Below, in pieces: positions 27 to 41,953 of a DNA stretch of 42,260 bases. Origin of the DNA: Spirogloea muscicola (taxonomy: Eukaryota > Streptophyta > Zygnematophyceae > Spirogloeales > Spirogloeaceae); NCBI GenBank assembly GCA_009602725.1, contig WELB01000146.1, positions 224,135 through 266,394 of the forward strand, in the 5' to 3' direction. Numbering within the stretch: position 1 is the first letter of the stretch; each line of letters starts with the position of its first letter. Position numbers and translations under genes: made by a program. The notes beneath the pieces were generated by a model. That model was given only the letters and a program-made list of their open reading frames with translations, was not told the DNA's origin and ran no database searches.

Positions 27-3000
27 ATGTGGGAGGCCGGGCGGCCGGACGAGCGCCGGCGCCTGACTAGCATGCCCGCGACGGGCGCCGCCCCCGCCGC
101 CGTCGCCGCCGCCTCTGACGTGCCGCTCATTGACTTTGGCGACGATGACCAGGCCGCAGCCGCAGCTGCTGCCGACCCGTTCCTCGGCGAGGCCGTGGCC
201 CGCTCGTCAGCCGCGTGGTTGCCGCAGCAGCCCGAGCCCGTGGTGACGTTGGCAGCACCGGCGTGGTTGGATGGCGGCGCACCAGCGTCGGCCGCAAGCG
301 CATCGGCATCGCTGCTGGCCGTTGGCGGCAGCCAGTTCCAGGGGCCGCCGCCGAGCTCCACGAATCCCTTCGACCCTTACGCGCAGCTCGCGCCGCCGCC
401 GGTGTCGCTGAGTCGTACTTCGTCCGGCAGCCAGCCGCCAATCGTGAGCCCTCCTCGCTTGGGCGACGTGGGGCTTGTGAACGGCGGCGGCCTCCTGCAG
501 CCCTCCTTCCGAGACTACTGGGAGCCGTCGTTGCCGTCCAGCCGGGCTCACAGCGTCAGCAGCGAGGGTGGCGGCGACCACAGCCTGCCTGCGAGCCCGC
601 TGAAAGCTGCTGCTTTCAACAACGGGGACGACCTCGACTTCTCCTTCTTCCGGCAGCAGCCTCCGCAGGTCGCATCCCCGTCACTGCCACCTGGGCCGCC
701 ACGGCAAAGCAGCCAAGGCCGCCGCAGGAGCACGTCAGACGAAGCCCTGCCGAATGGAGCTCGCTCGGAGGCCGGGACGGCCTTCGAGGCGGCTGGGCAG
801 ACTTCGCCGCGGTACGGGTCGTCCCCAGACACGACGAGGCAGGGCCTGAGGCAGTTGCCGAGGGCTGGGTACGGCGGCGCTGGCGCTGGCGCTGGCAGCA
901 TCAGCAGCTTCTTGCCTCCGGCCAGCGGGGGCAGTCCAGCAACAACTGAGTATAGGGGCCCTGTGCGTCACCCTGTGCATCCCGCACGACCGGTGCCCCT
1001 GGAGATCCGGCCGCACCCTTTGGAGGGCACGCTGCAGTCGGAGCAGCGCGTGAAGCACATAGCCTGCTCCAAGACGGCAGTCTGGGGCGCCACGTCCGCC
1101 GGGCTGCCAGTGTGGGACTTGGGGGTGGCACTCGGCAAGGGCGCACAGAGTGATGGCAACCCGCCGTCGGAGGATGGGTCTGCCGCCTGCGCATTCGTGC
1201 CCGTCCACGGGCCGAGCGTGACCTGCCTCGCTGTGGACACAGTCCAAAACATTGTCTGGGGTGGTGATAGAGACGGCCGCGCGCGGGCGTGGCCGCTGGA
1301 TGTGAGTGCTGAGCCAGGTAGGAACGAGCAGGAGGTAGCAGCTGCACTCCTTGTCTGGCAGGCACACAAGTCGGCAGTGACGGCCATCACAGTTACCCCT
1401 TATGGTGAGAGGGATGCCTTGCCTGTCACTTGGGCTCGCTGCTGATGATGCATTGCATTGAGACAATCGTGCGACTGCTATGTGACTGTGGTCAAGGACT
1501 AGTCAGCTACTGTCCAGGGGCTCTTCCCTTGACACCCTGTACATTTGTGACTCCCACTCTGGCAGTGGCCTTATGCAATGGCCGCTCGGTTGAAGAGCAG
1601 GGGAGCTTTGGACCGGCTCGGAGCATGGGAGCATCCGAGCGTGGCCCTGGGAGTTTGCGAGCCGCGCTCTAAAGACAGTGGCTCGCGGCGACCCATCGGC
1701 GGCCTCGTTCCTGGCTCAGGCTGGTCAGGATGTACGGGGCCAGGTGGCCCTTGGCAGCAACTCGTCTGGCCTCGTCCACTCGGATGTGAGATTTCTGATT
1801 GCTGATCGCGCCAACGGCCGCGTTTGGAGCGGCGGTTTCCATTGCATCGCAATTTGGTGAGCGCAACGAGGGGCATTTGCACGGCCATACGGATCATAAG
1901 AACCGTTCCTTCTCTGGCTCAGCTTCTCCTCACGGCTCCATCAGATGTCTAACATTGTACCCTGTATCTCCCAGTATTTAAGTTGCATGTTGTGTTTTGA
2001 CGGTGCAGGGATGCCCAGACACGCGACTTGCTCAGAATTATTGGCCCCAATGCCCAGCACGAGTTTGGCGGGGTGTCACCAACATGGACTGAGCGCGAGC
2101 CCGTGGCATCGTCGCCCACTGAGGAGGGCGAAACACCCGTGCTTGACGACCTCAGCCGCGGGTACATGAAGGTGAAGTTCAACAAGGAGCGCAAGGACAA
2201 GGGAGGGCGCGAGGGTGGTGCCAGGAAGGAGCCGTGGGGCTTCTGGCAGAAGAGCCTGGGCGCTGTGCGGCGCGCCGCGACTGGCGAGAGCAGGGCGGTT
2301 GGCGAGGATGGTGGTGGCAGACTCGGTTGGGGGAAGCTTGGGGCACTCGCTGCGGCGCCAGACGGCACGGTGTGGGGCGGCTTTGGTAGGGGCGTACTTG
2401 TCCAGTGGGACCGGCATGGCAGCCGGCTGCTGGAGTCTACGCCACACAGTGCAGTGGCCATTCGCAGCCTTTGCGTTGTCGGCACGCTTGTCTGGGTCGG
2501 CTACAAGGACGGCAAGATCGTCGTCGTGAGCTGCAAGAGCGCAAAGAAGCTTGGTGGCTGGGAGGCCCACAGCAAGAGCATCAGCCAGCTGGCAGCCTGC
2601 GGGGGTTACATCGTCTCGCTGGCCTCGCATGGCGGCATCCGTGCCTGGCTCTCCCTCTCGCCCTCGCCAGTGGACATGGACCTACGGGCCGCAATGTCCA
2701 CGCGCTCTGAGCTCTACACCCGATTCCGAGACCTGCAGATACTGTGCACCACCTGGAACGTGGGTGAAGGGCGGCCCAGCATGGACGCCTTCCAGTTTTG
2801 GCTGGGTTGTGCGGAGGTGGACAAGGCAAGCATAGTGGTCGTTGGATTGCAGGAGATTGAAGTTGGGGCTGGGTCCATAGCCGTGGCCGCAGCCAAGGAA
2901 TCGGTAAGTCGGCGGTCACAAGGAACAGCGCCCCACATACTAATTCAGAGCCCCACATATCAATTCAAGACCACAGATGTTGGACACCAACTGTGGTTGT

Positions 3001-6000
3001 CACAGATCCGAGAGCACGTTGAGCAATTGTCTTAATGTGGAATCATGCAATACAATCTTGATCGGATAGCAACATCTGAACTTTTGTCCTCCTGCAGGTG
3101 GGCATGGGGCTGCAGGAGAAGGGCAGCGCCAATGCAGCCTGGTGGCTGGCCAACATCTCGGCCACCCTCCGCAAGCACGAGCGGCTGGTGTCGCGGCAGC
3201 TCGCCGGCATGCTTATTGGTGTCTGGTGCGGTTAGCCACTCTCGTCTGGATCCTTGTGTCTTTCTCCTGGGAAGCAGCAGCCCAAATCCACTATGCTACT
3301 GTGCATGGCACCTGGCCAGATCACTTTATCATTCTTCGGCAGGCATTGACACCGTCTCACCTTGCCCCTGTACTATATGCTCTTGCTTTGTCAGCTAGTT
3401 GATATCTGCAGTCAGTACTTAACAGGGTCAAGCGGAGGCTACTGCCCTCAGTTGGCCAAGTGGAAGTGGGTGCAGTCGCCTGTGGATTTGGCCGGGCCCT
3501 GGGCAACAAGGTGCCTCCAGCATAGCAAGCCGCCATTCTTGATGACTTCATAAGAGAATAGGACGCTACCAGACTCTCCCTGAAGATCCTACATCTATTA
3601 GTCTTGTATTTCAGCCTCAACGAGCTGCACTTAGCCCCTCCTTCCTCACTCCGTGTCTGAGCAGCAGTTATGCAGAGTGGCAAATGGCAGTGCTATATTA
3701 AGACAAGCTCATCTGAGAGTGAGACACTGGTAATGTGTCCAGGGCTCAGTGGGCGTGCGGATGCTAATTGACAGGAGAGTGCTTTGCTTCGTCAACAGCC
3801 ACCTGGCAGCTCACCAGGATGCCATTGACAAGCGGAATCAGGACTTTAGGCACAGCTATCACCATTTAGTATTTGGCAGGGTCCTGGGCACTGTGGGCAC
3901 TGCGGCGACGAGTGTGGCAACTGCAGCGGCAGGTGAGCAGATGACTGGTTGTCCGAAGAACTAATATCATGCAGGCACTTTACAAGCAGCAAGAGGCACA
4001 TACTTTAAAACTTGCTTCACTCAATACTTTCCATGCTTGTTCGGTGGCCTGCTTTGGCTGCTTGGCACAGCTGGCGTTTCGTCGAGCGTGAAGGGCTTTC
4101 GGAAGTTTGCCCGATCGCGTGCGCAAGCGGTGCAGCCAGTCACGGATGGGGATGACACTGAGTTGGATGGAGAGTCGGCGCCAGCAGAGGTTAGTCTTAA
4201 AGAGGCAATGTGATGTAATTGAACGCTGTGACCCAGAAAGTTGATAAGACTGCAATTGTTTAGCGATTAGTTGTGCTTTCTTCATCTGCAGGACTTCAGA
4301 AGTGAGTACGAGACGTGCCGGCTGGTTGATGTGCAATGCCATTTGCTGCTGGTCTGTATGAATTCCGGTCTTGATCAGGAGGCAATTGCGTGTGTTCAGA
4401 TGTGGCTCAGTAGGTTGACTAGCAAGCTTGACCACTGCAGATCATTGATGATGGGCTTCCAGATAGCAACATACTGCCAGACCTTGCGGATGCTGATCTA
4501 CTCCTGTGGATGGGCGATTTCAACTACCGCATTGCCAACCTGACTTACGAGGAGGTTGTTGGGGCTATCAAGGATGGGGACCTGGCAACTCTCCAGGCCA
4601 ATGACCAGCTGCGGCTGGAGAACGCTGCAGGCAGGACATTTGTTGGCTTGCACGAGGCCGCCATCACGTTCCCTCCGACCTACAAATTTGATAAAGGCTC
4701 CAATGATCCATTGGGTGAGGTCTTCCTATCCACCTGCGGCATGCAGGTAGCGTGAAGCCAGTGTGTACTACTAGTTTTGCAAGCTTCATAGAAGATGTAG
4801 TAATTTCCGGCATGCAAATCCTTATGCAATTGTTGCAGATGCTGCATGACTATCAATTGAGCTGGTACATATGTTACTGTCCTCTTTAGGTTATGATTCT
4901 AGTGAGAAGAGGAGGATACCTGCCTACTGTGACAGGGTCCTCTTTCGCGACTCAGCGCAAGCCCCCCAGGAAACACTTGCAGTAGCTCTGTGCCACCCAA
5001 TACATGCTAATGTCCTCAGGTGTGCTTGTGTCCTAATTAATTCAGCTGTGGTTTCAAGCTGTGATTGTCAATACTGCAAGCACAGCCAACACCTGCTTGC
5101 GGCAAGCATATCATTTGAGACTGTGAGATTGTGAAAGCGAAAGAGCTCTTTGAAAATGTGCAATGTGTTGGCAAGTTTGTTCCTGCTCTCTGGCATAAAG
5201 GAGAGGTGCGTCTTAGTCCGTGGCCAGGGCATCAAAGAGCAGCAGACAAGTGTTGAGTCACAGCAGACTCTCACATAGTTATGTAATATGCTGACAGGTA
5301 CGATGCTTGCATGGGCGTTATAGACAGCGATCACAAACCCGTCTTTTGCTTGCTTGATGTTGAAATGGCCGTTGTTGACGACGCGGCACAGCGGGAGCAA
5401 TATGGCAACGTGCTGCGCACGGACCCCATGGTGAGAGGCCCTCTCCAACAAGCGCCATGCCCTCGCACAGTCTGCTCGCTAAGCTTGTCCTGTGGAACAT
5501 ACTCATTAGATAGGTGATGTGATGGGCGCACACCCGCATGAAGTCTCATTACCATGTCTACAAGCACTCATCCAATTGTATTCTACGACATGGACACCAC
5601 ATTGAAAGCGGAACACATTGACCTTCGTGCAGGTGGTGGGAGCGCTTCAGCAGGCAGAACTGGTGCCTTCCGTGACAGTGAGCTCCAGGAGGCTGTTGCT
5701 CTCTGGGGGGTCGCCGAGCAGCGTGATGGTGGCCAACACCAGCCCGAGCGACTGTGCTATATTTGAGATCTGCAGCGACGGTGATCCAACCCCCGCCAAC
5801 TGCCATTGTGGTAATGAGGACCACGGAGTCCTCAGCGCCGCGAAGGGGCCCAAGCCGGGCGGTGGTCTCCCAAATTGGCTGCAGGTACTGCAACCGACGA
5901 CAAGCCATTAGCATCTGGATCATCTTTGTCGCACGCTTCTGCAGTCTGACTGCATCTTTGGAACACTGTATCACTGGTTCAACACATCCTCTATTCTCTA

Positions 6001-10346: not shown

Positions 10347-13300
10347 TCAGGCGCGCCCACCAGTGACAGCTGCAATCTCAGCGGCAAAGTCTGCAGACCG
10401 TCGCTCAAGGCCCTCGCCGAGGTTGAACCGCTCAAAGCGCCGGACCTGGATGTTTTCGCCCAGCGCGGCGACTGTGGCCTTGACCAGGTCCTTCACCTTC
10501 AGCTTGTCGTCACGGATGTAAGGCTGCTCCAGCAGCGCAAGCTCATCGTACCGCTTGGCGACTCGCCCGTCCACGATCTTGGCCCGTACGCCCTCCGGCT
10601 TGCTCTTGAGGTCCTCCTTCTGCTCCTCCAGCTCACGCTCTCGCGCCCGTGCTGCTGGGTCGATGTCATCCACGCTAACCACCCGCACGGCCGGCGACGC
10701 CGCCACCTGCACAAGTGCCGCCGAGACAGTTGCCACGCTGCTGGCTCAAATTTTTGGCGCACAAACGTGAACAGCGGCAGGCATGCCGGGCCTTGTACCA
10801 GGACTTACGATCACCGCAGAATTGGCAGCATTGGCATATGACTGTGAAAAGCGCGGTCGTCGACCAAGGCCCGTGATGCGTGTACCTGCATGGCGAGGTT
10901 CTCAACCAGTTCCTTGAATTGGTCGCTGCGGGCGACAAAGTCCGTCTCGCTGTTGACCTCGATCAAAACCCCAATGCGACCGTCGTGAATATAGCTGCCA
11001 ACGAGGCCCTCCGACGCAGCGCGGCCGGCCTTCTTGGCAGCGCTGGCCAGGCCCTTCTTCCGAAGGTAGTCGGCAGCGGCGTCGAGGTCGCCGCCACACG
11101 CTGCCAGCGCCTTCTTGCAGTCCATCATGCCCGCGCCAGTCGACTCGCGCAGCTCCTTGACCAGTGCTGGCGCCACCGCCACTGCAGGTGCCGGCGCCGG
11201 TGCCGCCTCGGGCGCAGCAGCCGCCGGCTCGGCGGCCGCCGGCTCGGTGACCGACGGCTCGGCCGCTTTAGGGGTGCCGCCGGCTGCCGCTGCCGCAACC
11301 TCGGCAGCAAAGTCGGTGGACTTTTTGGCGAGGCCCTCGCCGAGGTTGAAGCGCACGAAGCGCCGGACACGGATGTTCTCACCGATGCGTGCGACTGCAG
11401 ACTTGACGAGGTCCTTGACCTTCACCTTGTCATCCTTGATGTATGGCTGCTCTAAGAGCGCAAGCTCGTCCAAGCGCTTGGCCACGCGGCCGTCCACGAT
11501 CTTCGCACGCACAGCCTCTGGCTTGCTCTTGAGGTCCTCCTTTCCCAGCTCCAGCTCGCGCTCCCGCGCCTTGACCCCCTCCTCGATCTCGTCCGTGCTG
11601 ACAACCATCACCGCCGGGCAAGCTGCCACCTGCATGCCCAGGTCCTCCACCAGCTCCTTGAACGCATCGCCGCGTGCCACGAAATCTGTTTCGCAGTTCA
11701 CCTGGCCCCAGCAAACAACCGATGGGTGAGCTTACTTGCAGATATTGGCTGTCAATGGAGCTACTATTCAAGCTGAGTGAGCATGTCAATATCTTTCTCC
11801 TTGCTACTGAGGTATTACAATAATCACGTGTCTTGACTTCTCCAACAGCGATATCGTCTATCACGACTGCAGCATCGAGGAGGGCTGAATGCAGATGCAG
11901 AATGCCCTGGCAAGCACCCACAAAGCTAAGCCCAGTTGCCGGCAACGGAGCGGCCCATTGCTACTCACCTCAATGAGGACGCCAATGCGGCCGTCGTGGA
12001 TGTAGCTGCCGACGACGCCCTCGGCAGCGGCGCGGGATGACTTCTTGTCGGCAGAGGCCAGGCCCTTGCGGCGCAGCACGTCGCGCGCGGCCTCCAGGTC
12101 GCCCTTGGCCTCGGCGAGCGCCTTCTTGCAGTCCATCATGCCCGCGCCCGTCTCCTCCCGCAGCGCCTTCACGACTGCAGCTGACACGCCGCCACCGCTG
12201 CCACCGCTGGCGCCGCCACTACTGGCTGAGGCAGCCATGGCCACCACTGGCAAACCACTGGCGGCGTTGAGCGCGACGCCGGAACTGGCCGCAGCTGCAG
12301 CCGGCGGCGGCGGGACGGCCTCCAGGGCTGGCTGCTCCGTCTCCTTGGGTGCGGCCTCCACCTCCGGCGTCTCCTCCACCACTGCCGCCTCCGTCGACTG
12401 CGGCGCCTCTGACTCTGCTGGGGCCGAAGCCACCTTGTCTTCGGATGCCGGGGTGTCAATTGGGAGCGGCGTTGCCTCAGCTGGCGTGGCCGCGGCATCA
12501 GGGACAGCCGCAGGCTCCTCCGCTTTCGGCACAGCCGCTGGCAGCTGCGGCTCCTCCAGTGGCGGCGCTGCCTCTGGCGCAGACTCCTCGACCGCCGGCA
12601 GCACCTCCTCAGGAGAGCTACCTGCCTCGCTAGCCTCTTCCGACGCCGGAGGCCCCTCGGCAGCCATGATGGACGGGCCCCCTGCAGCAGCCATCACCGC
12701 CGCCGCAGGCTCTTCAGCTGTCGCTGCCGTCGGAAGCTCCTCAGCCGCTGCTGCTGCCACCGGAGGTTCTTCAGCCGCTGCTGCCGCGAGCGAAGCCTCC
12801 ATGACTGCAGCCTCAGCTTCCGGCGCAGGCTGCACTTCGGCCTTCTCCACTACTTCTGGCACTGGCGCCACCTCAGCCGCTGCGCCAGCCTCCGCCTGGC
12901 CCGGTGACAGCAGGGAGGGCGACACCGCGGCAGGTACCTCGGACACGAACGGAGGCAGCGGCGCTTCCTCCACCAATGCAGCATCCACTGCCGCCGCAGG
13001 AGGAGGCGGCGGCGGCAGGTCCTCCGCTGGCGCTGCCGCCAGCAGAGGCGCCTCATTGGCCGCAACCTCGAGCTCCTCGGCTACCGCAGGCGCTGGCGGG
13101 GAGGCCGAAGCCTCAACAATGGGCTCCGGCGACAGTGCCGGCACCTCGTCCACCGCGGGCTCTTCGACTGCCGGCGCCACGGCCAAGGGCTCCGCCTCAG
13201 AAGCTGCTGGCGGTGCAGGCTGCTCTTCTATCTCTACTGCTGCCGGCGCAGCTACCGCAGGCTCTGGCACTGGTGGCTCCTCTTCCACCGACGGCAGCTC

Positions 13301-16300
13301 CGTTGCCGCTGCAGCGGGTTCCTCTGGAGTCGGCGGAGGCTCCTCCACTGCCGGCTGCACTTCCGCCGACCCGGAGAGCGCCGCCTCTAGCTCCGGTGCA
13401 GACTCGGGCTCGATCGTGGGCGGCGCCCGACTGGCGATAGCCGCCTCCGGCAGCGCCGCCTCCACCTGCGAGATGGCCGCATCCTCAGACTCCACCGGTC
13501 GTGCCGCATCCTCCTCTGCCGGCACCTCCTCGGTGGCCACGGGCTTGGCGTCCTCCACCTCGGCAACCGCTGACACCTCGGGCTCTGCCACTGCCTCCTC
13601 CTCCCTCGCTTTCTTCTCTCCAATCGCCGGCTCGGCGTTGTCGACCTCATCCACGGTGGCCTCCAACACAGAGCTGGTGGCCGCCTCCTCCGCTGGCGCC
13701 TCCTCAGTGGCCGCCAGGAGAGGGTCCTCCTCAGCATCTACTGCTGTCATCACCGCCTCCGGCTCTGCAGTAGGGGCAGCCAGCGATGCCTCCACCACCT
13801 TGTCTGCTTCCACCTGCTCATACGAGTTAGATGCTCAGGGTCGTTTGAACAGGAGCGGCGCAGCGCCGGCATTGCACCAACGGCGATCTCACAGAGCCTT
13901 ACTTTGTCCTGGATGAGGTTTGCGCGCCGGAATGCAAGCTCGAATGGATTCAGTGCCTCATCCGTGTCATTGATTGACGTATTGATGCCCTTCAGCTGCA
14001 GGAGGCAAGGCAGCAGCGGCGGCAGCTCTCAGTGGCGGCAACGTTGATTGCGGCAAGTGATATGCCAGGATGACCACTGCGCACCAAGGTCTGGGCAAGA
14101 GCTCTGGAAAGAAGGGAGGGGCGAAAGGGGGACAGAGCACAGGCTGAGGAGGGAGGGACGGGAATGAGGGGACAGACAGAGAGGGAGAACGTGGGTAGGA
14201 AGAGGAAGGAGGGAGGGAAGGAAGCTGAGGGCCGAGGAAGAGGGAGGGAGGCGGAGAGTGGAATGGTTCAGGGAGGGGGGGACGGAGTGGCGGCTGTTGT
14301 TGGTGGTAAGGACGAGCAATGCTGCTCACATCAACACGCTCCCGCATGGTCAGACTGATCTTGTTCCGCTGCAGGCACCATCCGCACATCGCTGCAGCAT
14401 CAGTGCTGCCGCAGTGAAGCACCACAGCCGCTGCCATCGAGGAGGGCAGCGGGACCTTCGCTTCCGTTAAGGACATCCCAGAGAGGAGGGAGGAGACAAG
14501 AGCGGCGAAGGTAAAAGCAGGCCCGCACCTCAATCCTGAGAATGCGCACGTTGACCTCCTGGCCAGCCGTCACCATCGACTCCACGGACACATTCTCGCC
14601 TGCGCAGTTGCCGCATGCGCCAGCGGCCGCCGGGCCTTGCTCCCCTCAGCTCGGGCCTCAGGCAGTCACTCCACAGACCAGACGCCAGAGCAAGAGAAGC
14701 GAGGGAGAGAGAAAAGAGAAAGAGGGGATGAGGGGAAGAGGAGGAGAGAGGAGGAAGGAAAGAGGAGGGAGGAGGAGGAGGGCAGTGAACGGGAGAGCAT
14801 TCGTGGACTCGCCTCCTTCCGCCATCTCAGAGGCATGGAGGAGGCCCTCGACGCCCTCTGCGAGCTCTATGAAGGCCCCGAACGATGCAAGATTCTTGAC
14901 CGTGCCCTTCACCATCTGATAGCCACAGGGGGGCGCTGTGGGTGGTCAGCCGACCTGGACAACTGGCAGAGACGCAGCCGCGGTGCGGCATGGACGGCTG
15001 CGGCTGCGCCTGCGCACCTGGCCCTTCTTGAAGTCATGCGCAGGTCTCTTGTCGTCTGCCGCCGGCGTCCGGCGACCGCCACCGCGGCCGCCGGCGACCT
15101 TGCCGCGGTTGCCCAGGCGGCCGCCCGGTGCAGCGCCGATCCCGGCCCCCGGCGCATCCCCGTCAGCGGCGCCACCATCCGCCGTCACCGAGCTGGCCAC
15201 CGCTGATGGGGCTGCCGCGGCAGCAGCTGCAGCCTCCGACTCGCGGTCGCGCATGGTGAGTGCGATGCGGCCCTTGTCGGCATCCACCTCCTTGACGCGC
15301 ACCGTCACGTCCTGCCCAATGGCCACCACATCCTCCACCGCCTGCACGTAACCATTCTGCAAGAAAACAGCCACGGACCGCGCCACGACGGGTCAGCAGG
15401 CTGACCCTCTAAACGCAGACATGGAGTCGACCAGCAGCGAAGGCGGAGCCGACGTCGGCAACGGCGGCTGGGACTGCGGGCGGATGCAGCGGACCTGGAG
15501 CTCTGAGATGTGGACGAGGCCGTCGGTGAAGGCACCAATGTCCACGAAAGCGCCGTAAGACTGGATCGACTTCTGCAAGCCGCAGTTTGGGGGCCGGCTG
15601 GTGGTGAGGCAACGCTTACTGCCGCTAATGACTGGCAAGCGCCGCCATGGCGAGCGCCGGCGCCGGCAGCGGCACTGCCATGGCAGCAACAGCGGCGCCG
15701 GATTGGCGGCGGCAAGGCGGCTGCAGTGGTGGCGCTTACCACTTTTCCAGGCAGTGACTGGCCGACAGTGAGATCCTCGAGCTGGACAGTGATGTTGCGG
15801 CGCTGGGGGCGGCCACCGGCGCCGCCGCCGCCGCCGCCGCCGCCAGCGGCACCGCCGGCACGGGTGGTGCGGATCACACGCTTCCGCGGCTGGTCCTCAG
15901 AGGCGGCTCCTGCCGAGGCGGCGTCCGGCACGGCATCGTTGGCCGCCAGCCCCGGCTCCGCCGCCAGCGCAGCGGCCGCGTCCTCGACGGCCTCTGCGGC
16001 GGCCTCCACGGGCGGAAGGTCCTCCACGGCGGCCTGGCCGAGNNNNNNNNNNNNNNNNNNNNNNNNNNNNNNNNNNNNNNNNNNNNNNNNNNNNNNNNNN
16101 NNNNNNNNNNNNNNNNNNNNNNNNNNNNNNNNNNNNNNNNNNNNNNNNNNNNNNNNNNNNNNNNNNNNNNNNNNNNNNNNNNNNNNNNNNNNNNNNNNNN
16201 NNNNNNNNNNNNNNNNNNNNNNNNNNNNNNNNNNNNNNNNNNNNNNNNNNNNNNNNNNNNNNNNNNNNNNNNNNNNNNNNNNNNNNNNNNNNNNNNNNNN

Positions 16301-36265: not shown

Positions 36266-39200
36266 CTAAGGCGGGAATGGGTGGAAGAGCTTGTGGACCT
36301 CGTCGGCGCGGGGGTAGGTGCCACCTCCCGCGGCCGCCGGACTCAGCGGCGGCGGCGAAAGCTTGAGTACAGTCTCCGGCGGGATTCTGCCAGACACGGC
36401 AGCCGGATGGAGGATCTGCGCAAGCACCTCGACGCCGTCGACGAGCCGCGGGCCGGGCCGGCTGAAGAACACATGGTCCACGACGTATACCTCGCCAGTG
36501 CGCACGGCTGGTAGTGACCAGAACCCTGGGAGGCCTGCCAGAACCTCGACCTGCGCACGAAAGCATAAGGGGTGTCGCAACCGTCACCAGTTGCGATAGC
36601 ACCATCTGTGGATGAGGCATCCATCCCTTTGGCGCAGTGGCTATCGACAAACTTAATTTATGTCCTCCTTGATGAAGTCGAGAGTATGTCGAGGTTGGCT
36701 ATGGAGTCTTATAATTTGGGGCTATGATTATAGGGCTTAGTGTGTGCACGGCAGATATACTGTTCATCCAAGGTGCTGACCTCAGTGAGAGTCCGGTTGG
36801 GCGAGGAAGAGCAGGGGCTGAGGACGAGGACATCAGGCGCAGCCGCGAGGACGCGCTCCCATGCGATGCGCTCGGCGGGCGCGCCCGGCTCATGCAGGCA
36901 GTCCTCGCCACCAGCCATGGACTTCACCTCACTCAGCCAGTGGCCGCCGAGTGCCAGCGGCACGAGGCCCTCGAGCGACGCAATGCGCCGCCGGCCTCGG
37001 CCAGCCACGGCCGTTGCCACACCCCGCAGCCGCTTGCGCAGACCGTCTACGAGCCGCTGCGCGAGCGGCTGGCTCACGGCCGCCTCGCCGACCTGCAAGA
37101 TGGCTGCCAGCACCTCCGACAGCTGCGCAGTGCAATGCAGCAAGGGTCGACCCTCAAGTCACCACCATAAGAGAATGCGATGAGCAGCAGCGTACAGTGG
37201 GCAGGGCCGGCACTGGCACCGGTGGTCAGCACCTCCATGGACGTGCATCTAGCTCAACCATTCACCAGAAAAGCTTACAGTGCGGGGCCGCAGAACGACG
37301 ATCTTGAGGCTGGGCGACCCAAGTAGGCCAGCGCCAGCGAGCGCGCGGCCCACCTCGCTCTCGCTGGCATCGCACCGCTCGCATGAGTCCTGGCAGCGCA
37401 CGGATGAAGGAAACAGCCTCTGGTAAGAGGGGCCGAGTGCGCTGCTTGGTTGCAGCAGCCATGAATGTCATGCAGAGAGGCCTGGCGCAGAGGCTGGCGG
37501 GCGGACCTGCGTGAACACGAGGTCCGGCTTGGCGCGGCGCAGCCAGTCAGTGTCCACTTCGAACGGGCTCTCCCCGCTCTCCTCGAGCCGCCGCATCTGC
37601 ACATGCGCGCTCTCTGAGAGCCTCAACAGGGCAACCACGTCCACAGTACAGGCCCAAGGCTGCCCAGCAGCGGCGGCCAGAGCTCGCCAAGAAGTGAAGC
37701 CTCACCGCGGCCTCGACGTCAGCCCTGGACATCTTGGCGGCATCCACCTTGCTCCGGCTAACCTGCAGACAGCCAAGGCCGCATCAGCGGGCCTATCGGA
37801 GCGACCATTGGTGCTCCTTACGACAGCAGCAAGGACAGGCCCTGCCCTTATGAAGCCAAGGAGGAGGGCAGGGCAAGTACGACGTGCCGCCCGCGGTCAA
37901 CGTCCGCGGGGTAATCGCATAAGCCCGAGATGCCAATCAAACGGTCGCCCACGCCTGTGGCACCAGAGCCGCAGCAGAAAATGATGGAGGGGCTGAGCTC
38001 GACAACAAACGCTGAGCCTTGAGTGGAAGCACAGGCGAGTGCACGGGCGAGCGCTGAACTGCTGGCAGTGGCAGGGGTGAGTGACTCAGTGGCGGCGGCA
38101 GCAGCCATGACACACCGAGCTTCGCGAGGATCTCGGTGGCGGCGGGCAAGAACGAGACAATGCGCAGCGGCGGCGGCGGCTGCAGCAGCAGCATGCGGGC
38201 GCCGCCGCCGCTGCCTCCCGTTGCTGCTGCTGCCGCCGCCGTNCGGCGGCGCGCGCGGTGAACCCCGAGCGGCTCCGCTGCCGCTACGCCATGGTGTAGG
38301 CCGGTTCCTGTCGCCGCTGTCGCTGCCCGAAGTCGGCGACGGGAACTCCGGCGGCGACGCCAGTGAGTCCTCATCTGCAGCCGCTGGCCGCCCGCTGCGC
38401 CGCACCCCCGCAGCGAGTGGTCGCTCGACACTGCTGCGCCGTTGCCGGCTCTTGCTGCTGCGCGGGCTCCCCCGCCCCCGGTCATCAACTCCACCGCCAC
38501 CGCCGCTTGTGCTCGCTGGCGGCGCCGCAGGCCAGTACTCGGATGTCGACCGCCGCAGCACACGCACCTTGCTGACAAACTCCCCGCCACCACCGCCAAC
38601 TCCACCAGCACCGCTCCGCCGCGTGCCGCTGCTGACGCGGGCCTCTGCTGATGCCCGCCGCCGGCCGCCAAGCCCGCCACCGCCACCGCCACCACCGTCC
38701 TCATCCTCCCACTCTTCGCCGCCTCCACCGCCGCCAGAGACGGCATATGCAGACTCTGAGCGGTACAACGGAGGCGCGCGGCCCCAAGGATTGCGGCCAT
38801 CGGCAGCGCGGCCCTCGGCAGCCATGGTGGCAGTGGCGGCGTCAGCAGAGCGGTGACGCCCTGCTCCCCCACCTCCCTCCTCCCACCATGCCTCCCTCTC
38901 TGCTCCGCCGCTTCCCTCCTCGGGCCGGACGTATCCTGGCTGCCAGCTTACCTCCCTCCTGAGCTTTGCCCGCCCGCCGCCGCCGCTGAGCTCTGTGACG
39001 ACGACTGGCGGTGCCGGCAGGCCGTACGGCACAATGTCTGTCAGGTGGTGCTGGTGGTGGTACAGGCCGTCGCCGCTGCCATCATCTGCACCGGAATTGG
39101 CCTCGGCAACAGCGGCAGCCGCCGCTGCACCCGCGGCTGCTGCCGCCACGGGCCCGGCCGCATACACTGCTGATGCTGACGCCGCTGCCACGGCGGCTGC

Positions 39201-41953
39201 CTTGGACCCCTCGCGCCTGTGTGGGGCAGGCGGAGGCAAGAGAAAGCACAATAAGAGGAAAGGGATGAAGGATAAGGAGGGTGGGAGGTGAGAGGGGGGA
39301 GGGAGGTGGGGACACGACACAGAGAGGAGAGCAGACGAGAGCCTTGCCAAATTTGAGAAGAGCGCGGAGGTTGCGACGCTGCTGGCCACACCTGGCGCGA
39401 TCGACAAAGGCATGCGCCGCAGCGGTGTTGGACCCGAAATGCACGTGCACGTATGTTGCGAGCACGTTGAGCCGCACGTAGCCCTCGGGCTCGGGCGCTG
39501 CGCCTGGTAGCTGTCGCTGCACTGTGAACCTGCGGCGTGGAGGGTGGTGTTAGCTCGCTCCAGCTTACGGCGCAGCCGGCGCCAGACGGAAAATGGAGAG
39601 AGGGAGGCAGCTGATTGATGGCAAGCGATGCACGGTGCTTGAAACGGCAGCAGTAACGTACGCAGTCGGCAGTGCTGCTAGCGAGCCCCCGCCAGCGCCA
39701 GCGACGACCTCGCTGAAGTGGAAGTACTGGCCGCGCAGCGACCCGTGCTTCTGTGGGAAGTGCTGGCAGCCCTCCTGCGGCACAACCTGCACTCGACCGC
39801 AAGTGGCACGCTGCCTCCTCCCGTCAGTGGCCATGCCGCCGTCTTTCCCACTGTCTTTCCTCCCTCCTCCCTCCCTCTGCTCCAGGCTCAGCTCCCTCCC
39901 CATTCCCTCTCCATCCCATATTACAATCTGCCCGACGGACAGGAAAGGGGGGGAGGGAGGAGGGAGGAGGAGCAAGAGTCCCACCGTCACATAGCCCATC
40001 TTCATTTGCGGCACCATCCGCGTCCAGAAGGGGAACACGCCGCACATCGGATACCGCTCCCCCTCACGTGTCTGCGGCGCACCGGCGGCGGATCAGGACG
40101 GCTGCATGGCCAGGCCACAGTGCTGGCGGCATGCACCGCACGCTGCACCCGAGCTGGAGGCAAGGGCAAGCGGGTATCGCGAGTAGCGGAGGGGGGTGGA
40201 GGGAGGAGGAAGCAAAGGGGAAGGAGGGACTAGCATAGCAGGGAGGAGGGAGATGGAGGTGGGATGAGACGGGCGTAAGAGAGGGGTTGTCACTTGCCTG
40301 GATGCCCTGAGAGAGGTACATGAGACCGCCGCACTCGCCGTAGATTAGGCCGCCGGCGGCGGCAAACGCGCGGAGGCCGTACAGGGCGCGCGTGTTGCGC
40401 GACAGCGCGAGCGCGTGCAGCTCCGGGTAACCGCCGCCGAGGTAGATGGCGTCCAGCCGCGGCGGCAGACCTGGGCCGTCGACCAGCGAGAAGAAGACGA
40501 GCTCTGCTCCTGCATCTGCGGCGTCCGGTGGCGCGGCCGCAGCATGGCTCTGAGCTGCTGTTTGGCAATAGCAGTAGAGGTGGCGGCTCGCTGACGCAGA
40601 AGGCAAAATGAGGTGGGTGGGAGGGAGGAGGGAGGGAAGAGGAGGTGGAGATTGGTGGAGTGAGGAGGAAGAAGAGCAGGAGGCGAGGTGCAAAGGGGAG
40701 GGGTGTAGAGTGCGGGGGAGCGAGAAGGGAAGGAGGAGGGAAGGGGCACCATGGAGGAGGGCAAGGTTCTCGTGGTAGTAGAAGCAGAAGGCGGCGTCCT
40801 GCGCGACGCCGATGCGTACCGCCTTGCCAGGCGTGCGCGGTATGCCCGCATCGCTGCCGCCGACCTCGCCAAACGGCGGCGGCTGCGGCGGCGGCGGCGG
40901 CTCGAGCTGGGCGGCGAGCTGCAGGATGGCGTCAAGGTCGAGGTGTGCCTCGACAAGGTCAGAGAGGCGGGCGATGTAGTCCGCCGGCACTATAGGCTCG
41001 CCAGGCATTGCCAGCCCGAGGTGCCGCTCTGGCAGAGTCGCGGCCTCCGACTTGGGCACGCCGCCGAGCACCGTCGCGCCGACCTCAGCAGCCTCCACAG
41101 CCTCCTGCAGCCACTCGGCGTGCGCTGCTCCACCCACCTGCCGCCACCTCCGCCGCTCTGCCCAGCGTCATCGAAGGCGGCAGCTAAGGAGGAGGGGCGC
41201 AATGGTGGGTAGCTGAGGGGAGGAGGGAGGGAGGAGGGGGTGAGGGTGTTCAAGGACCTTGTTGAAGACCACGCCAGCAAAGACGAGGTCGGGGTCGAAG
41301 GAGGCGTAGCCGAGGACCATGGCGGCAGCGGAGCGCGCAAGAGCCCAGCAGTCGAGCACCAGCACGACGGGTGCGCCGAGGATCTTGGCCATCTCGGCGG
41401 TGCTCCCGGCCTCGGACCGGCCGTCGCGGCCGTCGAAGAGGCCCATGCAGCCCTCGACGACAGCGAGGTCGGTGTCCGGCGCCGCACGCAGAAAGCACGC
41501 AATATTCACGTCCCTGGACGGACGAGGAGGAGGACAGGCGTTCTGAGAAGCGGAGGAGGCGAGGAGGGAGGTGCAGGTGCAGGCGGGACGAGGGCGGAGG
41601 GAGTGCAGGGAGGGGGTTCACCTGCTGAGCATCCAGCCATCGAGGTTAAGGGAGTCGCGACCTGTCGCCGCCTTGTGGTGCATCGGGTCCAGGAAATCTG
41701 CAGCAACCAGCGACCGCCGGTGGTGGCCGGCGTCACAGAGCCATAGACAAGGAAGGGCTACTCGTCGCCGCTAGCGGCAGACCGGGCCGGCAGTCAGGGC
41801 CAAGCGGCGGCGGAGTCGGGATAGCAACGGACCTGGCCCGACTTTGAACGGCTGCACGCGGAGGCCGCGGCGGCGGTACGCCGCCATGAGGCCGATGGCG
41901 ACGCACGTCTTGCCGACACCCGAGTGCGTGCCGGCAATCACCACGGCCCTCAT
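36266..41953 (-). CDS. cbiA-like: Cobyrinate a,c-diamide synthase (CbiA/CobB) fused to a BtuF-type corrinoid-binding domain
   Basis: The N-terminal 465 residues match CbiA/CobB, which amidates the a and c side chains of cobyrinate (or a related tetrapyrrole) using ATP and glutamine. Exons (descending): 41953-41833, 41697-41622, 41513-41258, 41137-40750, 40515-40298, 40071-39985, 39774-39662, 39529-39392, 39216-38116, 37954-37881, 37762-37706, 37596-37507, 37389-37279, 37122-36781, 36550-36266. Motifs: P-loop [58 protein letters not shown]; in the glutaminase domain [15 protein letters not shown] with the catalytic Cys, and YVHVHFGSN with the His. A Gly/Ser/Ala-rich linker of about 350 residues follows. 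The BtuF-like domain then reads [57 protein letters not shown] and PDVLVLSPC. Phases close at 1151 aa if one base near the N at 38243 is removed. The intron after 40298 has a GC donor. Alternative: two tandem genes, the second starting at the ATG near 38824. Confidence 0.82.
38243..38243. other. Single ambiguous base at a frame change
   Basis: One N sits inside a GCC/CGG-rich stretch of the CbiA-BtuF linker. Upstream the linker is open in one minus frame; downstream the BtuF start (RIVSFLP) is in another. Removing one base here joins the two frames exactly. Confidence 0.85.
39240..41250. repeat. GGGAGG-type purine tracts in CbiA introns
   Basis: G/A-rich tracts on the + strand lie at about 39280-39330, 39945-39975, 40190-40230, 40618-40750 and 41200-41245. 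Each falls in an inferred intron of the minus-strand gene, so its pre-mRNA carries CCCTCC tracts. They resemble those in the EF-Ts introns. Confidence 0.75.

Follow-up and report, generated by a model that had tools for sequence, protein, structure and literature searches.

Structure of the gene and its three copies

The window (the whole stretch of 42,260 nucleotides analysed here) carries on its minus strand, at 41953-36266, a single gene model with 14 introns, which runs from a CobB/CbiA-type a,c-diamide synthase through a long low-complexity linker into a BtuF-fold domain (Table 1). Introns are present in both domains, their phases fit throughout and their borders are GT-AG, plus one GC-AG donor at 40297. 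Exons 1-8 supply 482 codons of the CobB/CbiA part, whose final residues fall in exon 9. In the latter exon the CobB frame runs on through a stretch of about 320 codons in which Ala, Gly, Ser and Arg abound. The Peripla_BP_2 domain that follows is complete and is spread over seven coding stretches.

Table 1. Features of the probable fusion gene (positions within the window)
Feature	Position	Strand	Basis or remark
CobB/CbiA-type a,c-diamide synthase, exons 1-8	39392..41953	minus	splice model, profile scores, dN/dS
CobB exons 1-4	41953-41833, 41697-41622, 41513-41258, 41137-40750	minus	
CobB exons 5-8	40554-40298 (GC donor), 40071-39985, 39786-39662, 39529-39392	minus	
P-loop SGVGKT, residues 11-16	41906..41923	minus	S11, G12, G14, K15 and T16 invariant with four bacterial CobB
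Cys355 codon in GECGGLMYL	40331..40333	minus	E354-L361 invariant with four bacterial CobB
Exon 9: final CobB codons, ~320-residue linker, N, start of BtuF fold	38116..39216	minus	linker coding up to the N
Single N between linker frame and BtuF frame	38243		frames part by one base
ATG opening the BtuF-fold domain, possible internal Met	38194	minus	within exon 9
Remainder of BtuF fold and C-terminus	36266..37954	minus	splice model, PF01497, dN/dS
BtuF-fold exons after exon 9	37954-37881, 37762-37706, 37596-37507, 37389-37279, 37122-36781, 36550-36266	minus	
Cys39 of BtuF-fold domain	37919-37917	minus	86/86 sequences
CxxC motif (Cys103 and Cys106 of BtuF-fold domain)	37372..37383	minus	Cys103 in 86/86, Cys106 in 84/86 sequences
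Cys241 of BtuF-fold domain	36813-36811	minus	84/86 sequences
Stop codon	36268-36266	minus	

Two further copies of the gene are located in the same genome (L001 on contig C18 and L002 on contig C72), and the domain order is the same in all three. Identity between the copies is 87-90% across the whole locus with its introns, their splice dinucleotides are identical, and the divergence between their introns is 5-23%. Such a triple locus points to a genome that is polyploid, hybrid or triplicated.

Comparison of the copies gave dN/dS values of 0.028-0.091 for the CobB part and 0.095-0.114 for the linker, each from three comparisons, and of 0.067-0.074 for the BtuF-fold domain, from two. A wrong-frame or chance reading is excluded by these ratios, which are 0.03-0.11 in the true frames vs >2 in every wrong frame tested. 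Bacterial contamination is ruled out by the 14 introns in both domains together with the three genomic copies, and is also countered by further ORFs of the window, with matches to an IP5P beta-propeller and to elongation factor Ts. This is a genuine eukaryotic gene on which selection is strong.

The CobB/CbiA part

The N-terminal part of the protein is a member of the CobB family, scoring 439 bits with the CobB equivalog NF002204 (cut-off 254) and 398 bits with TIGR00379 (cut-off 261). Pfam-type matches within it are GATase_3 (97.1 bits) and CbiA (69.7 bits). The model of CfbB, the Ni-sirohydrochlorin a,c-diamide synthase, gave 355.8 bits, below its cut-off of 560, so the protein is not assigned to that family. 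Alignment to four bacterial CobB proteins (41-47% identity) has shown that the P-loop, GPDFLDP, a longer stretch beginning with EGx, and FHxS are kept, and all of the CobB motifs looked for (P-loop, GPDxxDP, EGxMGLxDG, the glutaminase ECGG and FHxS) are present. We take these motifs to have their catalytic roles in the algal protein, Cys355 being the presumed glutaminase nucleophile. A PDB sequence search with the CobB part found no match at 0.001. The complete CobB/CbiA amidotransferase with P-loop and glutaminase parts described in the initial annotation is thus borne out by both the equivalog score and the invariant motifs.

The likeness to cobyrinic/hydrogenobyrinic acid a,c-diamide synthases of the CobB/CbiA type extends over the whole length, the motifs and the curated score. 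Unlike its bacterial counterparts, the algal protein is eukaryotic and intron-rich, has a long C-terminal tail and carries a second domain, and its host differs in that the partner pathway genes were not detected.

The linker and the join

From 39216 to the N, the linker is coding in the CobB frame. Over this part of exon 9, third positions account for 49 of the 64 changes between the window and L002 (p = 1.8e-12) and for 19 of the 23 changes between the window and L001. Linker indels of 15 and 6 nt are common to both other copies, and an additional 6-nt gap in L001 sits at the join itself.

The join consists of repeated GGC/GCG units. The window has its linker and BtuF frames offset by one base, with a lone N in between. 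L001 has one N at the same place, and its frames agree if the N stands for one base; L002 has no N, is about 70 nt longer at the join and has its frames off by two. In both copies with the N, this letter is followed by A at the same GC-repeat. The N is likely to be an assembly artefact, one that could break gene predictions, and we infer from the three phases found in three copies that the join suffers from assembly trouble. An in-frame ATG (38194 in the window) opens the BtuF-fold domain in all three copies. In the 47 nt between the N and this ATG, 3 of 4, 2 of 5 and 5 of 7 changes fall at third positions in the three comparisons, numbers too small to judge. Part of the linker could be read as an intron, since the donor-like gtaagc (38951) and gtgcgt (38567) could each restore the frame; we consider this unlikely, given that the stretch shows codon-wise evolution and that L001 has gtcagc in place of gtaagc.

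An uninterrupted reading from CobB into BtuF had been proposed earlier. It holds insofar as the linker frame meets no stop before entering the BtuF exon in any of the three copies and the intron phases fit within both modules; it is not confirmed across the join, where the frames of the window differ by one base at the N. We consider it highly probable that CobB, linker and BtuF-fold module are translated as one fused chain. The fusion is strongly supported, short of proven, and the remaining doubt comes mainly from the frame mismatch at the join and from ATG 38194.

The BtuF-fold module

The C-terminal module belongs to the Peripla_BP_2 superfamily (PF01497: 54.5 bits, cut-off 27.5, profile positions 1-232 of 235). 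With the BtuF equivalog NF002894 it scores 33.4 bits, which does not place it in that family (cut-off 234). The export expected of a BtuF is not apparent either: the domain is internal, the protein starts at the CobB P-loop and no leader is seen. In L002, a one-base indel lies just before the ATG, which counts against a coding leader there.

Four cysteines are near-invariant among the 86 aligned sequences, the alga included: Cys39 and Cys103 are found in all 86, Cys106 and Cys241 in 84. The algal module has all four and so belongs to a signal-less four-cysteine subfamily. In 73 of 80 cyanobacterial relatives no start codon lies more than 18 residues ahead of the fold; where 18 or more residues precede it (8 relatives), the highest 11-residue hydropathy is 1.47. 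Such short N-termini and low hydropathy make signal peptides unlikely in the subfamily. Since no leader precedes the P-loop, the fused algal protein is, judging from its sequence, probably cytosolic as well. The name "BtuF-like periplasmic" given to the module initially is therefore appropriate for the fold, which is of the BtuF/heme-binding class, but not for the rest: the module falls outside BtuF proper, being a relative with four cysteines and no signal peptide, and is probably not periplasmic.

The predicted structure of a cyanobacterial relative of the module (pLDDT 92.5) finds its fold matches in 2r79 (Z 24.5, rmsd 2.5, 263 aligned), 5ysc (Z 23.4), 2q8p (Z 23.3) and 1n2z (Z 23.1). Heme-binding proteins and BtuF match this model about equally and the top ranks are occupied by heme and B12 binders; unassigned or siderophore binders also appear at similar Z, and some of the matches are Ni binders. 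The equivalents of the four cysteines in the model (30, 92, 95 and 229) are placed in loops that follow strands, and it is in such loops that BtuF-type folds bind their ligands. At the position of the first cysteine, two aligned PDB relatives have Ser and Asp. With BtuF of the BtuCD importer the module shares the fold (5ysc and 1n2z, for the relative's model), whereas its probable lack of secretion, its low equivalog score and its conserved cysteines set it apart.

Prokaryotic relatives and their neighbourhoods

Signal-less BtuF-fold proteins with four near-invariant cysteines are widespread, occurring in cyanobacteria, actinomycetes, alphaproteobacteria and haloarchaea (L016-L095 and the plasmid loci L003-L007). 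They have the same Cys39, Cys103, Cys106 and Cys241 as the algal module, lack a secretion signal and are 31-43% identical to it, but are free-standing in the loci seen, with CobB not nearby. Their annotations read "cobalamin-binding protein" or "ABC transporter substrate-binding protein", and none of the five members tested matched an NCBIfam model above its cut-off.

The plasmid collection contains 17 records with relatives, the best from Embleya (42%), followed by Qipengyuania, Haloferax and a cyanobacterium (34-35%). A cyanobacterium-led query yielded at least 588 relatives in prokaryote genomes, of which the best 80 were kept, all of them cyanobacterial by title; as these are the best-scoring ones for such a query, other phyla are hardly sampled. 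CobB was found near the subfamily gene in none of the 80 loci from cyanobacteria (the best 80 of at least 588; 4.6-12.9 kb long, with complete flanks in 60) and in none of the five plasmid loci. A scan of genome contigs with the algal BtuF-fold domain alone found no relative.

A partial parallel is offered by a plasmid of Deinococcus proteolyticus (L099:2441-7973), where a BtuF-like gene is located directly before cobO-cobB-cobU-cobT. The cluster also includes an adenosylcobinamide-GDP ribazoletransferase (cobS-type) gene, and no ring-synthesis gene is present in the 9.3 kb read, so it looks like a corrinoid salvage cluster. Unlike the algal module, however, the Deinococcus BtuF-like protein is of a secreted type, with an N-terminus that resembles a signal peptide and not a single cysteine.

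Host and B12-related genes

Ten of the 35 listed ORFs of at least 150 aa in the window were scanned, seven of them without an informative match. Two exons on the plus strand (3-1442 and 2001-3032) code for an inositol-polyphosphate 5-phosphatase-type beta-propeller (PF23754, 64 and 96 bits), and elongation factor Ts domains (EF_TS 124 bits, with EF-Ts_N-like matches) are located on the minus strand at 10814-11731 and 11864-13834. The latter include four EF_TS stretches, an arrangement which we take to resemble the plant plastid EF-Ts polyprotein. Both are as expected for a plant nuclear contig.

The genome also includes plastid DNA, a 56.9 kb contig that matches psaB and psaA and on which we read further ORFs as rps14, chlB, tilS and odpB. 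The best PDB match of PsaA is 8htu, presumably a moss photosystem. The plastid odpB and the match to 8htu make a streptophyte host likely. The host had initially been called a chlorophyte, which is probably wrong, as odpB is, according to PMC1781420, one of the plastid genes of streptophytes that have not been found in Chlorophyta.

The GATase_3 profile matched the genome at the three fusion loci only, hence no separate CobQ was seen. An exon-by-exon profile search of the genome gave no match for CbiC, CobT and CobS, nor for PduO-type and CobO-type adenosyltransferases. This absence is weak evidence because the search runs exon by exon: with Peripla_BP_2 it found the two other copies and missed the window's own. 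METH, a B12 user, is present at two loci with intact-looking matches. METE matches were also found at two loci (contigs C56 and C59), some with stops inside the matched stretch that may be introns or decay. As CobT, CobS, CbiC and adenosyltransferase are unmatched, the product of the CobB part has no known next step here. Since the steps that usually flank CobB were not detected on either side, its substrate is probably taken up (a precursor or damaged corrinoid) or is another tetrapyrrole, e.g., sirohydrochlorin. To our knowledge, eukaryotes are held not to make corrinoids.

Known algal systems offer two comparisons. The cobalamin acquisition protein CBA1 has, in the accessible part of PMC10828217, a BtuF-like structure by that paper's model and little sequence similarity to BtuF. 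Both it and the fusion are algal and described as BtuF-like in structure, and a CobB part is not mentioned for CBA1 in that part of the paper. Pseudocobalamin remodelling in algae uses COBT, COBS and COBC according to the accessible part of PMC4850488, and likewise involves bacterial-type corrinoid enzymes inside algal cells; "CobB" is absent from the main text of that paper. As CobT and CobS were not detected here, the fusion would be an activity distinct from this known remodelling. No description of a CobB-BtuF fusion was found in the open-licence PubMed Central papers searched. Both domains belong to known families; the novelty lies in the way they are combined, in their host and in the pathway being missing.

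Proposed function and alternative explanations

Taken as a whole, the data are best explained by a streptophyte nuclear fusion gene coding for a cytosolic ATP/Gln-dependent a,c-diamide synthase and a four-cysteine corrinoid-type module, an explanation that we regard as evenly balanced between right and wrong. The BtuF-fold module would capture a carboxylated tetrapyrrole in its cleft and present it to the CobB enzyme, which is predicted to amidate the a and c acetates using ATP and glutamine. The likeliest substrate would not be made by the alga itself but be a corrinoid that is scavenged or damaged (side-chain-hydrolysed). That the module indeed holds a corrinoid or a similar metallo-tetrapyrrole, and passes this ligand on to the amidase for conversion of the a and c acetates to acetamides, is plausible, although we put it somewhat below an even chance. 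We count in favour of the best explanation the CobB score and motifs, the full Peripla_BP_2 domain, dN/dS, the three loci, the stop-free frame between the modules in every copy (with L001 open throughout if its N is one base), METH and the Deinococcus parallel. Counted against it are the frame offsets in the window and L002, ATG 38194, the lack of CobB in all 80 cyanobacterial and all five plasmid loci, the different type of the Deinococcus relative, the unmatched pathway genes and a CfbB score (355.8) not far from that of CobB.

The frame offsets in the window and in L002, the ATG at the domain start in all three copies and the bacterial relatives being single proteins would fit two neighbouring genes, one for a CobB extended by a long C-terminal tail and another for a free-standing four-cysteine BtuF-fold protein that starts from ATG 38194. 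This arrangement is very improbable, as the CobB frame is open up to the BtuF exon in every copy, L002 without an N among them, the tail is selected up to the N, and the ~130-180 nt between the two parts are too few for a terminator, a promoter and a leader. If the fusion is real, its substrate could still be a non-corrinoid tetrapyrrole acetate bound by the four-cysteine module, e.g., (metallo)sirohydrochlorin as for CfbB in F430 synthesis. Siroheme is made in plastids in plants, and the lack of a visible plastid leader ahead of the P-loop argues against this substrate, as does the CobB equivalog score above its cut-off while CfbB stays far below its own. On the other side are the undetected corrin ring and loop-assembly markers, the fold matches that do not separate heme from B12, and the close homologue CfbB (355.8 bits with its model), which acts on Ni-sirohydrochlorin (PMC7242693, accessible part). 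We consider a non-corrinoid substrate possible but doubtful.

The cysteines allow yet another interpretation, in which the module is not a tetrapyrrole binder but a cysteine-ligated carrier or sensor of a metal (Co, Ni, Zn or Fe-S) that feeds metal to the CobB part or regulates it. Their near-invariance, the Ser or Asp found at the first position in two aligned PDB relatives, and the Ni or siderophore binders among the fold matches are consistent with this, and in the predicted model the cysteine equivalents may lie in the very loops where the fold generally binds ligands. We find such a metal module unlikely, given that heme and B12 binders lead the fold matches and that the partner enzyme is an amidase of tetrapyrroles.

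Returning to the capture and amidation of a tetrapyrrole by the fusion protein, we tentatively speculate that the streptophyte alga possesses a one-protein machine for both tasks outside the known cobalamin pathways, which may repair or complete scavenged corrinoids or make an a,c-amidated tetrapyrrole new to eukaryotes, its binding half being a member of a four-cysteine BtuF-like family that is widespread and cytosolic and for which no function has been named. A conserved CobB in three copies, with other cobalamin markers undetected, implies a plant-lineage tetrapyrrole amidation that has no place in current maps. As the partner domain represents a common bacterial family without a matching NCBIfam equivalog, the fusion provides a direct clue, open to testing, as to the ligand of this family. 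If the capture-and-amidate machine is true, the fusion would reveal what the four-cysteine BtuF-like proteins bind.
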